DNA of 32,203 nt from a bacterium. Its GTDB lineage: Bacteria > Patescibacteriota > Minisyncoccia > UBA6257 > 02-FULL-45-10c. The notes beneath the pieces are model-generated. The model saw only the letters and a list, made by a program, of their open reading frames with translations, had not been told where the DNA came from and ran no database searches. Below are positions 2,622 through 31,050 of this stretch, piece by piece (the first letter of the stretch is position 1; every line of letters starts with the position of its first letter). The position numbers were made by a program, and so were the translations under genes. Where the stretch lies: assembly GCA_030700025.1 (NCBI GenBank), contig JAUYKI010000009.1, positions 1 to 32,203 on the forward strand, read 5' to 3'.

Positions 2622-2690
2622 TCCCTCACTCTTGCGAAAGTTAATCCGCCATAGGCGGATTTTTTATTGCGCTTTCGCAAGAGTGAGGGA
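2622..2690 (+). repeat. TCCCTCAC palindromic element carrying a terminator
   Basis: Perfect 19-bp inverted ends: TCCCTCACTCTTGCGAAAG (2622-2640) and its complement at 2672-2690. Inside is an intrinsic terminator: AATCCGCC (2643-2650), a 3-base loop, GGCGGATT and a T run to 2665. A near copy lies at 4835-4905 and a relic at 190-230. It ends the small-protein operon. Confidence 0.8.
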
Positions 2691-4905: not shown

Positions 4906-4930
4906 CGGGGGGCTTATTAGGTAGGCTTGA

Positions 4931-5064
4931 CCCCCCACATAACTGCGATTGCAAAGCTAGTTAATCCCAGGGGTTGTTCGTTGTTTATTAAGCCAATAAC
5001 TAAAAACTAAGCCTTATTGCCAGATTTCACGGCTTTGAGGATTAAATCGCAGTTATGTGTGGGG
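4931..5064. repeat. 134-bp element ending at a -35 box
   Basis: CCCCCCACATAACTGCGATT (4931-4950) and AATCGCAGTTATGTGTGGGG (5045-5064) are inverted with two mismatches. TTGA flanks both sides (4927-4930 and 5065-5068), consistent with a 4-bp target duplication. The right TTGA is part of the TTGACA -35 box of the next gene. A short palindrome with a similar CCCC...ACATAAC arm lies at 13776-13803. No coding content. Confidence 0.6.
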
Positions 5065-5100
5065 TTGACATCTTGCCCTATTTATGCTATATTTAGCATA
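5065..5100 (+). promoter_or_regulatory. Promoter with palindrome over the -10 box
   Basis: TTGACA (5065-5070), 17-base spacer, TATATT (5088-5093). The palindrome TATGCTA-TATT-TAGCATA (5083-5100) covers the -10 and start point, a likely repressor site. It differs in sequence from the operator at 4348-4367. Confidence 0.72.
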
Positions 5101-5582: not shown

Positions 5583-5726
5583 TTGAGGAAGATATTTGAG
5601 GAACACCTGCCTGCCGGTAGGCAGGTCCCGCAGGCGTATTTTGCTTGGACCACAAAATACGCCGAGGGCGAAGAAAAATTAGCCGCTGGAGCTGATTTAT
5701 TCTGTTTCCGAAAATATCTGCCGCAA
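5583..5726 (-). repeat. GGCTATATC-type element, inverted copy
   Basis: In reverse orientation this shares with 11033-11154 and 30919-31050 the core GGCGTATTTTG / CAAAATACGCC hairpin and the TCCAGCGGCT terminator-like stem. It contains an extra CCTGCCTGCCGGTAGGCAGG palindrome (5606-5625). Its ends are imperfect (5587-5603 against 5702-5721). No gene lies between 5549 and 5755. Confidence 0.7.
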
Positions 5727-8315: not shown

Positions 8316-8436
8316 TCCCGTTAGAGACAACTAAATCAAATTATAATATGTTAATCAAAGTTCAAAATATAAAAATGTCGAATATAATTAAAACGGCCGA
8401 GCTACGGTCGCCTTTGGCAACCTGCCTCTAACGGGA
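8316..8436 (+). repeat. TCCCGTTAGAG element, copy 1 (before rpsG)
   Basis: 121 bases with inverted ends TCCCGTTAGAGACA (8316-8329) and TGCCTCTAACGGGA (8423-8436, one mismatch). The last A is the A of the rpsG ATG. It holds an AT-rich stretch, an inner GGTCGCC-TTT-GGCAACC hairpin and a 27-codon mini-ORF. This copy has several substitutions relative to the 20280 and 21228 copies and shows no clear target duplication, so it looks older. Confidence 0.85.
8348..8431 (+). CDS. Mini-ORF in repeat element, copy 1
   Basis: 27 codons plus TAA, beginning MLIKVQNIKMSNIIK and ending SPLATCL. Compared with the copy at 20311 it has five substitutions and no indel or stop (I5V, N9K, I12N, V13I and one silent change), although a 1-base indel separates the copies just upstream of the ATG. 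The stop lies in the right inverted repeat, four bases before the rpsG ATG. I infer that it may deliver terminating ribosomes to the next start codon. No SD; expression unproven. Confidence 0.4.
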   Translation: MLIKVQNIKMSNIIKTAELRSPLATCL

Positions 8437-11020: not shown

Positions 11021-11032
11021 ATTTTTAATCTC

Positions 11033-11154
11033 GGCTATATCTCTTTTCAGAAACAGAATAATCCGGCTCCAGCGGCCGGATTTTCTTCGCCCTCGGCGTA
11101 TTTTGTGGTCCAAGCAAAATACGCCTGCGGGATGTTCCTCAAAAAGATATAGCC
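11033..11154 (+). repeat. GGCTATATC element after fusA
   Basis: Ends GGCTATATCTCTTTT (11033-11047) and AAAAAGATATAGCC (11141-11154). Inside are a terminator-like stem AATCCGGC-TCCAGC-GGCCGGATTTTC and a perfect 11-bp hairpin GGCGTATTTTG / CAAAATACGCC (11095-11125). In the copy at 30919 the first stem has changed on both sides (AAATCAGC / GGCTGATTT), which keeps pairing. It probably acts as the rpsL-rpsG-fusA terminator. Confidence 0.75.
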
Positions 11155-11190
11155 TTGGTTTGGTTGGGTTGCAGAAATATTGAACAAAAA

Positions 11191-18270: not shown

Positions 18271-18600
18271 ATGAGCAGAAGTTCTAAAAAAGGTCCTTAC
18301 GTGGATCCAAAATTACTGAAGAAAATTTCCAGATTAAAATCCGGCGATAAGACGGTTATTAAAACTTGGTCGCGGGATTCGGAAATTTCTCCGGAAATGG
18401 TTGGTTTTGTTTTTGGCGTCCACAACGGGAAAGATTTTATAGAAGTAAGAGTCCGGGAAGAAATGGTAGGCCATCATTTGGGCGAATTTTCTCAGACCCG
18501 TAAATTTACCAAGCATGGCGGTAAAATGCAGCGCGAATTGGAAGCTTCTACTGCTACGGCCGCCGGCGGAGCTGCCAAGCCGGAAGCGGGCAAGAAATAG
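18271..18600 (+). CDS. rpsS: 30S ribosomal protein S19
   Basis: 109 residues. The core [44 protein letters not shown] and [19 protein letters not shown] is standard (about 92 residues in E. coli). An Ala-rich tail ([19 protein letters not shown]) extends it by about 17 residues. It sits in the 30S head with S13. The TAG stop is directly followed by a 49-bp repeat shared with the rpsH-rplF junction. Confidence 0.95.
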
Positions 18601-18649
18601 TTCGACCCATTCGACTTCGCTCAGGACAAGCAAGCTCACTATAAATAAA
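18598..18649 (+). repeat. TAGTTCGACCC repeat, copy 1 (rpsS-rplV)
   Basis: 52 bases from the TAG stop of rpsS are identical to 22713-22764 after rpsH. The unit contains ATTCGACTTCGCTCAGGAC, a motif of widespread REP-type repeats, and ends with TATAAATAAA. rplV starts 13 bases later. Confidence 0.8.
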
Positions 18650-20279: not shown

Positions 20280-20399
20280 TCCCGTTAGAGGCAACTAAAC
20301 AAAATAAATTATGTTAATCAAAATTCAAAATATAAATATGTCGATTGTAATTAAAACGGCCGAGCTACGGTCGCCTTTGGCGACCTGCCTCTAACGGGA
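20280..20399 (+). repeat. TCCCGTTAGAG element, copy 2 (rplP-rpmC)
   Basis: 120 bases with perfect 14-bp ends TCCCGTTAGAGGCA (20280-20293) and TGCCTCTAACGGGA (20386-20399). It differs from copy 3 at one base. ATGAAA occurs on both flanks (20274-20279 and 20399-20404), as for a target duplication. Closing the gap restores an ATGA stop-start overlap of rplP and rpmC. It contains hairpin GGTCGCC-TTT-GGCGACC and a mini-ORF. Confidence 0.88.
20311..20394 (+). CDS. Mini-ORF in repeat element, copy 2
   Basis: 27 codons plus TAA, MLIKIQNINMSIVIK...SPLATCL. It ends within the right inverted repeat, four bases before the rpmC ATG (TAA-CGGG-ATG). The same frame is intact in the copies at 8348 and 21259. 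It has no SD and an AT-rich front. I infer a translated spacer that keeps ribosomes moving from rplP to rpmC; a meaningless open frame remains possible. Confidence 0.42.
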   Translation: MLIKIQNINMSIVIKTAELRSPLATCL

Positions 20400-21227: not shown

Positions 21228-21347
21228 TCCCGTTAGAGGCAACTAAACAAAATAAATTATGTTAATCAAAATTCAAAATATAAATATGTCGATTGTAATT
21301 AAAACGGCCGAGCTATGGTCGCCTTTGGCGACCTGCCTCTAACGGGA
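21228..21347 (+). repeat. TCCCGTTAGAG element, copy 3 (rplN-rplX)
   Basis: 120 bases, one difference from copy 2 (GCTATGG for GCTACGG). Perfect 14-bp ends. Direct repeats ATGAA flank it (21223-21227 and 21347-21351). The left ATGAA is best explained as the original rplX start, duplicated on insertion. Copies 2 and 3 are 948 bases apart in direct orientation. Confidence 0.88.
21259..21342 (+). CDS. Mini-ORF in repeat element, copy 3
   Basis: 27 codons plus TAA, as in copy 2 except for one Arg-to-Trp change near the end (CGG to TGG). The stop is four bases before the rplX ATG. The frame is intact. Expression unproven. Confidence 0.42.
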   Translation: MLIKIQNINMSIVIKTAELWSPLATCL

Positions 21348-22341: not shown

Positions 22342-22715
22342 TGAACACTTTAATAAAAATTAAAAACGCTCAAGACGCCAAAAAAGAAAACGTAAAAGTT
22401 CCTTTTTCGAATTTTTCGCTGGCAATTTTGGAACTTTTAGAAAAGCATAAATTAGTAGAGGCGGTGTCTAAGAAGGGAAGAATGCCCAAGAGGATTATTG
22501 AAATTAAATTGAAATATAATAATGGCGAAGGCGCCATCCATCAAATTAAGTTTTTGAGCCGGCCATCCCGCCGCCTATATATGGGTTATAAAGACATTAG
22601 ACCAATTCGGCAAGGTTATGGCGTTTTAATCCTCTCTACTCCCAAAGGAGTGGTAGATGGCAAGACGGCTAGAAAAGAAAAAGTCGGCGGTCAGGCGCTG
22701 TTTGAAGTTTGGTAG
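22335..22715 (+). CDS. rpsH: 30S ribosomal protein S8
   Basis: 126 residues. [75 protein letters not shown] are typical. The N-terminus is a few residues shorter than usual ([11 protein letters not shown] in place of DPIADMLTRIRNA). Starts at 22335 and 22341 are both possible, overlapping the rpsN stop. In E. coli S8 represses the spc operon at an mRNA site; no such site is identified here. The TAG stop leads into a repeat copy. Confidence 0.95.
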
Positions 22716-22764
22716 TTCGACCCATTCGACTTCGCTCAGGACAAGCAAGCTCACTATAAATAAA
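22713..22764 (+). repeat. TAGTTCGACCC repeat, copy 2 (rpsH-rplF)
   Basis: Identical over 52 bases to 18598-18649, again starting at the TAG stop of the upstream ribosomal gene. Its TATAAATAAA end lies seven bases before the rplF ATG, so a weak -10-like box for a leaderless start is possible. Confidence 0.8.
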
Positions 22765-22767
22765 CAT

Positions 22768-23328
22768 ATGTCTAAGATTGGTAAAAAAATAATAGTAATT
22801 CCCAAAGGCGTTGAAGTAAGAAACGCCGACAGCGTTTTGGAATTCAAGGGAAAGGACGCCACTTTAGCTTTGCGCTTATTGCCGCATGTTGAGGCTAAAA
22901 TTGAAGGCGAGATTTTATCTTTTGCCGTAACCGAAAAGAGCCTTCAGGCCCGGGCTAATTGGGGCACCATGCGGGCGTTAGCCCAGAATGCCTTAACCGG
23001 CGTTTCCGAAGGATATAAAAAGATTTTGGAATTGCGGGGCGTTGGTTTTCGCGCCGCTATCGAAGGAAATATTTTGGTTTTAAACATCGGCTTTTCTCAT
23101 CCGATAAAATTTGAACCTCCGGCGGGAGTTAAGATTTCCGTGGAGAAAAGTTTTATTACAGTTTCGGGCGTGGATAAGGCTATGGTTGGGCAAGCGGCCG
23201 CTAAGATTAGAGCATTTAAGAAACCTAACGCGTATCGGGGAACCGGCATTCGCTATAAAGACGAAGTCGTAAAAACTAAAGCCGGTAAAAAGGTGTCCGG
23301 CGGTACGGGCGGCACCGGAAGTAAATAG
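22768..23328 (+). CDS. rplF: 50S ribosomal protein L6
   Basis: 186 residues. MSKIGKKIIVIPKGVEV is the standard start; an upstream open frame overlaps rpsH and is rejected. GTMRALAQNALTGVSEGYKKILELRGVGFRAAIEGNILVLNIGFSHPI and the C-terminal AFKKPNAYRGTGIRYKDE are conserved. A Gly/Thr-rich tail follows. It lies near the GTPase centre. The TAG stop is directly followed by a palindromic element. Confidence 0.96.
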   Translation: MSKIGKKIIVIPKGVEVRNADSVLEFKGKDATLALRLLPHVEAKIEGEILSFAVTEKSLQARANWGTMRALAQNALTGVSEGYKKILELRGVGFRAAIEGNILVLNIGFSHPIKFEPPAGVKISVEKSFITVSGVDKAMVGQAAAKIRAFKKPNAYRGTGIRYKDEVVKTKAGKKVSGGTGGTGSK

Positions 23329-23460
23329 TCCCTCACTCTTAAAGAACCAATAATACGTCCGAGGCAAAATTAATACTCAAAACTATGTTTTCAACAATAA
23401 AAAGTCATTTAATTAAAATCAAGAATTGCGATAGCGTCGCAGTTCTTTAAAAGTGAGGGA
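23329..23460 (+). repeat. TCCCTCAC element with mini-ORF (rplF-rplR)
   Basis: 132 bases. Ends TCCCTCACTCTTAAAGAAC (23329-23347) and GTTCTTTAAAAGTGAGGGA (23442-23460, one mismatch). The first 12 bases match the terminator-carrying elements at 2622 and 4835, but this copy has no terminator; it has an AT-rich interior, hairpin TGCGA-TAGCG-TCGCA and a mini-ORF. The left end touches the rplF stop; the right-end A is the A of the rplR ATG. Confidence 0.82.
23385..23450 (+). CDS. Mini-ORF in the rplR-proximal element
   Basis: 21 codons plus TAA, beginning MFSTIKSHLIKIKN and ending SVAVL. The stop lies in the right inverted repeat, nine bases before the rplR ATG. Its position matches the 27-codon frames of the TCCCGTTAGAG elements although the ends differ. 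Only one copy is seen, so conservation cannot be judged here. Confidence 0.35.
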   Translation: MFSTIKSHLIKIKNCDSVAVL

Positions 23461-23813
23461 TGAAAAACCCAGATAAAATAAAAAATGTAAAAAGAGATCA
23501 GCGGCGGAAACGGAATCGGGCCAAAATTTATGGCACCGTTGAAAAGCCGCGGCTATCGGTTTTCCGAAGTAACCGTTATACTTATGCTCAGTTGATTGAT
23601 GACTCTAAAGGCGTTACATTAGCATCCGCTTCCACCCATAGCGTTAAGGGGAAGGGCAAGGCGGCTCAGGCTAAGGCTTTGGGAGCATTGATTGCCGAAA
23701 AAGCCCAGAAAGCCGGCATTAAGCAGGCGGTATTCAATAAAGGCCCGTATTTATTTCACGGAAGAGTTAAAGCTGTCGCCGAGGGCGCCCGGGAAGCCGG
23801 TTTAAAGTTATAA
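23460..23813 (+). CDS. rplR: 50S ribosomal protein L18
   Basis: 117 residues, usual length. RDQRRKRNRAKIYGTVEKPRLSVFRSNRYTYAQLIDDSKGVTLASAST and the C-terminal KGPYLFHGRVKAVAEGAREAGLKL are conserved. It binds 5S rRNA with L5. The start codon is formed at the end of a palindromic element; rpsE follows after four bases. Confidence 0.96.
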   Translation: MKNPDKIKNVKRDQRRKRNRAKIYGTVEKPRLSVFRSNRYTYAQLIDDSKGVTLASASTHSVKGKGKAAQAKALGALIAEKAQKAGIKQAVFNKGPYLFHGRVKAVAEGAREAGLKL

Positions 23814-30918: not shown

Positions 30919-31050
30919 GTCTCGGCTATATCTCTTTAAGGAAACAGAATAAATCAGCTCCAGCGGCTGATTTTTCTTCGCCCTCGGCGTATTTTGTGGT
31001 CCAAGCAAAATACGCCTGCGGGATGTTCCTTAAAGAGGAATAGCCTCGAC
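30919..31050 (+). repeat. GGCTATATC element, copy near the right end
   Basis: Ends GTCTCGGCTATATCTCTTTA and its near complement at about 31029-31050. Internal stem AAATCAGC-TCCAGC-GGCTGATTT is a two-sided variant of the stem in 11033-11154; the 11-bp GGCGTATTTTG hairpin is identical. No gene lies in it. Confidence 0.75.

Follow-up and report, generated by a model that had tools for sequence, protein, structure and literature searches.

The 132-nt element between rplF and rplR in the window (the whole 32,203-nt stretch analysed, which is contig C2 of an 830 kb, about 99% complete host genome in 18 contigs) is best explained as a miniature, non-autonomous derivative of an inverted-repeat transposon that has F1-type ends, encodes a GIY-YIG nuclease, targets start codons and keeps translation coupled. 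The probability of this reading is estimated at roughly 0.7. The element ends in 19-bp inverted repeats paired at 18 of 19 positions with one mismatch, and it lacks a target-site duplication. Most of its layout had been recognized in a preliminary description, and these parts were borne out (Table 1): the left end directly follows the rplF stop codon, the last base is the A of the rplR ATG, an inner hairpin lies beside the right end and a 21-codon frame stops within that end. Two motifs described as common to this copy and to copies with unrelated ends (the FA family), TATGTT and TTTAATTAAAA, were likewise located, and counterparts exist in FA copies. The rplF-rplR spacers of relatives measure 2-50 nt.

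Table 1. Coordinates of the rplF-rplR element, its parts and neighbours, and of other elements in the window.
Feature	Position	Strand	Remarks
Whole element, F1 end family, non-autonomous, 132 nt	23329..23460	+	ends pair 18/19; family multi-copy
Left terminal inverted repeat TCCCTCACTCTTAAAGAAC	23329..23347	+	F1 pairing profile
Right terminal inverted repeat GTTCTTTAAAAGTGAGGGA	23442..23460	+	final A forms the first base of the rplR start codon
21-codon mini-ORF MFSTIKSHLIKIKNCDSVAVL	23385..23450	+	ATG at 23385, stop TAA at 23448-23450 within right end; read as collapsed nuclease-ORF remnant
Inner hairpin AAGAATTGCGAT(AGC)GTCGCAGTTCTT	23421..23447	+	beside right end; 3' arm overlaps right repeat
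rplF stop codon TAG	23326..23328	+	flush with left end of element
rplR ORF	23460..23813	+	start codon completed by element
FA-family element at ATG start	20280..20399	+	ATGAAA on both flanks
FA-family element at ATG start	21228..21347	+	ATGAA on both flanks; about 99% identical to the 20280 copy
FA-family element	8316..8436	+	ends at ATG start
Short F1-ended copy	2622..2690	+	terminator-like hairpin
Third end family element (ACCCCCCACATAAC)	4930..5065	.	at -35 box; TTGAC on both flanks

The F1 element is short, carries terminal inverted repeats and is present in many copies, as is typical of MITEs. The 12-nt F1 end TCCCTCACTYTT occurs 85 times in the host genome when one mismatch is allowed, and the exact F1 end-pair pattern yields 22 matches there. 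Among the 244 genomes of the order that were compared, which are metagenome assemblies, F1 pairs were found in 14 and FA pairs (TCCCGTTAGA; TCCCGTTAGAG family) in 62, and the reversed-pattern controls of all three end-pair searches gave no match. The sequences bounded by F1 ends include 28-nt palindromes, 60-80-nt copies with terminator hairpins and 127-147-nt AT-rich copies. Pairing between the F1 repeats amounts to 89-100% through position 19, except for position 10 (79%), where a C/T asymmetry between the two ends is frequent; position 20 is paired in 5% of cases, which is under the chance expectation of about 25%. F1 ends also lie some 30-240 nt from the ends of contigs C1, C7, C8 and C17, as if identical copies had broken the assembly there. 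Another F1-ended element (L029, 1988-2095) is located within a tRNA-Pro gene and brings its own complete tRNA-Pro.

Both end families also enclose complete elements of about 275-300 nt, whose sole gene encodes a GIY-YIG nuclease of about 85 amino acids (PF01541; Pfam E 1e-10 to 1e-18 in autonomous copies). These full-length elements are flanked by 5-bp duplications (ATGAA or ATGGA) or are positioned between a stop codon and an ATG. Autonomous parents with F1 ends are represented by L292, L373, L375, L376 and L377; full-length F1 elements measure about 290-300 nt, with inverted repeats of about 20 bp around the GIY-YIG gene. The L292 element has a 20/20 repeat and an ATGAA duplication, L376 has an ATGGA duplication, L375 lies between TAA and ATG, and L377 lies between TAG and ATG and carries an F1 miniature nested in its leader; L373 is a complete F1-ended GIY-YIG element. 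L292 comes from a 4.7-kb contig in a bin labelled Nanoarchaeota, a label that may be a binning error. Two further F1-ended GIY-YIG elements in the host genome (L214 and L216) are cut by contig ends. A 736-nt F1 end pair (L036), considered as an autonomous element, turned out to be two short copies flanking an ordinary gene. One 275-nt FA copy codes for a GIY-YIG nuclease, and full-length FA elements include L213, L238, L248 and L276. FA ends bound 18 of the 19 FA-nuclease loci scored, with ATGAA on both flanks in most. In four FA parents (L213, L238, L261 and L276), the open nuclease frame reaches back to the upstream ATG of the duplication, so that the host start codon may drive the nuclease.

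A PF01541 search of the host genome returned eight small genes, five of which are inside inverted repeats or immediately behind an F1 end. Across the order, inverted repeats surround 28 of the 79 GIY-YIG genes examined at a score met by 0.3% of shuffled flanks, and no repeat score above 10.5 was obtained for 20 relatives outside the end families. No recognizable GIY-YIG protein was present in five inverted-repeat pairs of 268-275 nt from the host genome, and a search of the FA nuclease against viral contigs gave no match.

The exact placement of these elements at start codons is well above that of shuffles and was not selected for, because the end-pair search patterns left out the downstream TG. 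This dinucleotide directly follows 60/63 FA copies and 43/61 F1 copies, and an ORF of at least 50 amino acids begins exactly at the ATG thus formed in 55/63 and 37/61, respectively. The start-codon sites of both families span many genera. About a third of the F1 copies, short or terminator-bearing ones, lie away from start codons. Target duplications accompany 40/63 FA copies, where they measure 4-6 nt and mostly read ATGAA or ATGGA, and 9/61 F1 copies. A stop-flush class of 21 F1 copies, including the one at rplF-rplR, shows no target duplication; here an in-frame upstream stop codon (18 TAA, 2 TAG, 1 TGA) touches the left end and an ORF starts flush with the right end. The rplQ-rplM junction holds an F1 copy in the host genome, a decayed FA copy in genus G008 and a TAATG overlap in G011. 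That the stop-flush class always targets such an overlap is not established, as one relative shows it, at rplQ-rplM, and spacers are present in most.

The proposal of a superfamily in which a single design is combined with different ends was supported, since the F1 and FA families have in common the start-codon sites, a frame and a hairpin on the same side, and full-length GIY-YIG members. Mini-ORFs with a length of 15 codons or more and a stop within the right end were found in 30 of 37 F1 and 41 of 55 FA copies at start codons; 200 shuffles of the interiors gave means of 6.3 (F1) and 7.4 (FA) and maxima of 13 and 14. A right-side hairpin above the 95% null occurs in 73% of F1 and 38% of FA copies, and a left-side one in 3-4%. 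The inner positions of the F1 ends vary among copies yet pair in 90% of cases, compared to 53% with shuffled partners. What is kept of the mini-ORF seems to be the frame rather than the peptide, because pN/pS is 0.58-1.0 in the mini-ORFs (weak constraint) and 0.25 in the nuclease (strong constraint).

The miniatures resemble the nuclease elements in several details. Mini-ORFs and the nuclease ORF agree in frame, stop and start type (LMLEG versus VIFEG before the stop codon, in the context TGA GGG ATG). The F1 nucleases start with MF and some finish with LEG at TGA GGG ATG; many F1 mini-ORFs start with MF as well and finish with FEG or SEG at the same TGA, and an LSLTG ending is common to some FA mini-ORFs and FA nucleases. 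In FA parents, the right-end pairing of GGAAACGC with GCGTTTCC is formed with the LRKRF codons and retained through compensatory changes, and some miniatures have lost the loop and show the same stem in short form, GGAAACGC(AAA)GCGTTTCC. Beyond the ends, start type and stop, the miniature interior gave no alignment with the nuclease gene. On the nuclease tree, the enzymes with FA ends group in a single clade (100/98) and those with F1 ends in a separate one, and the end labels require 21 changes compared to 48.6 when they are shuffled. Each end family thus goes with its own nuclease clade, and the free exchange of ends suggested earlier is not supported. Miniatures and the matching nuclease also co-occur across genomes, for FA in 23/30 versus 39/213 (p=3e-10) and for F1 in 4/6 versus 10/237 (p=1e-4).

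This evidence bears on the possibility that the elements are MITEs of the usual kind, mobilized by a conventional transposase that has escaped notice, with the GIY-YIG gene as a passenger or invader. Elements driven by a transposase typically show inverted repeats and 5-bp duplications, but the end family is tracked by the nuclease clade, the miniatures co-occur with the matching nuclease and GIY-YIG is the only ORF of the full-length copies, which makes this explanation unlikely. Classical homing, the copying of a free-standing GIY-YIG endonuclease into homologous sites by repair, appears very improbable. The nuclease has the homing-nuclease fold and a weak match to group I intron endonucleases, and in a different genus (G008) an independent FA element occupies the same rplR ATG at rplF-rplR. 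However, instead of a single homologous allelic target, there are dozens of unrelated sites in each genome that have nothing in common but ATGRA or a stop-ATG junction, homing does not involve inverted repeats or short duplications, and the miniatures do not carry the nuclease gene.

The idea put forward in the preliminary description, that a superfamily swaps ends onto a shared interior, has very little probability left. Mini-ORFs are indeed present in other copies (see the counts above) and the rplF-rplR copy aligns with one FA copy, L054, above all shuffles. This is the sole such pairing; similarity between F1 and FA interiors is near the shuffled level for 7/8 F1 copies of the host genome (p 0.03-0.38), so a common interior was mostly rejected, the likeness being chiefly AT-richness, and on the tree the ends stay with their nucleases. 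Least credible is a regulatory leader of the host (an attenuator or a translational coupler) that was duplicated for its function and is not mobile: it would suit the location at starts and the conserved hairpin and frame, but not the ATGRA duplications, the near-identical copies at unrelated genes, the wide variety of genes that follow the copies (rplR, rplM, ssb, polysaccharide and cell-wall genes) or the nested copies.

In the preferred reading, that of a GIY-YIG transposon and its miniatures, the nuclease itself would move the element. Acting on folded or paired ends, it would cut at a start codon and then join the element there; the placement is directly visible in the copies, and the catalysis is inferred. 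Two modes of insertion are proposed, one into ATGRA with a 5-bp duplication and one between a stop codon and the next ATG, as at rplF-rplR. The downstream gene is kept because the final base of the element re-creates the ATG. The internal frame, full-length in autonomous copies and probably a short remnant in the miniature, ends 3-9 nt short of the ATG or overlaps with it, and ribosomes leaving the upstream gene could therefore be relayed through this frame to rplR. Loss of the gene body by internal deletion would have given rise to miniatures mobilized in trans. Such a deletion would have spared the ends, the right-side hairpin and the frame, and it may be on these parts that mobility and harmlessness depend.

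Further repeats were encountered in the course of the analysis. In an end family with the pattern ACCCC.CAC (window 4930-5065; L252, L263, L270, L291, L260, L017 and L024), all 8 copies that were examined carry TTGAC at the right junction, and most carry it at or close to the left junction as well; in the window copy, TATATT follows TTGACA at a distance of 17 nt. Judged from these junctions, this family inserts at -35 boxes. Some of its copies encode a GIY-YIG nuclease. Three GIY-YIG inverted-repeat elements (L253 558-848, L267 609-899 and L293 1482-1773) have the right flank AGGAAAGTCSGGRC, which we take to be RNase P RNA. A 277-nt GIY-YIG element with 25-nt perfect ends (L218 1483-1759) adjoins an apparent 5' part of a tRNA gene, and further tRNA-like sequence lies downstream. 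The window also contains an identical 52-nt direct repeat (18598-18649 and 22713-22764), each copy right after a ribosomal-operon gene, and another inverted-repeat family of about 122-127 nt in three copies, one of them inverted (5619-5714, 11029-11155 and 30920-31046).

Several known systems resemble these elements in part. Bacterial MITEs and insertion sequences are likewise short, multi-copy sequences with inverted ends, target duplications and non-autonomous copies of a coding parent (PMC10969869). Here, however, the parent is about 290 nt long and has a GIY-YIG nuclease in place of a transposase, insertion occurs at start codons and the copies hold a frame running up to the ATG; the text of that review mentions neither GIY-YIG nor start codons nor CPR (PMC10969869). 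The GIY-YIG-encoding insertion sequences in CPR rRNA genes share the hosts, the GIY-YIG gene and the fact that they are not introns, and their authors placed them outside spread by homing (PMC11270868). That study deals with rRNA genes only, and the terms inverted repeat and tRNA gene are absent from its text (PMC11270868). GIY-YIG homing endonucleases belong to the same catalytic domain family (PF01541), whereas the present elements have many unrelated sites, inverted ends and miniature derivatives. Rickettsia palindromic elements are also small, palindromic and ORF-bearing, and their insertion is compatible with translation, but they insert in frame inside proteins and the elements described here at starts and between genes.

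The element family may represent a novel type of transposon of exceptionally small size. To our knowledge, no autonomous DNA transposon as small as the GIY-YIG element is known. Searches of the open-access literature returned nothing on GIY-YIG transposons or CPR MITEs and no GIY-YIG enzyme acting as a transposase, and if the GIY-YIG protein mobilizes these elements, they would represent a kind of DNA transposon not found in that literature. On the sequence evidence, there is probably a whole class of transposons of about 280-300 nt, with an approximately 85-amino-acid GIY-YIG nuclease as sole protein, whose lineages differ in their ends and in the functional motifs they target (start codons, stop-start junctions, -35 boxes, tRNA and RNase P RNA genes), in several cases restore the motif on insertion and seed genomes with translation-coupled miniatures. 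If the GIY-YIG protein is indeed the mobilizing enzyme, this would offer an explanation for the GIY-YIG insertions in CPR rRNA genes, which have been set apart from introns and homing (PMC11270868). It would also mean that an element can make its way through essential operons by inserting at points that leave stop and start codons intact. The elements have a bearing, too, on the annotation of gene starts and small ORFs in Patescibacteria.
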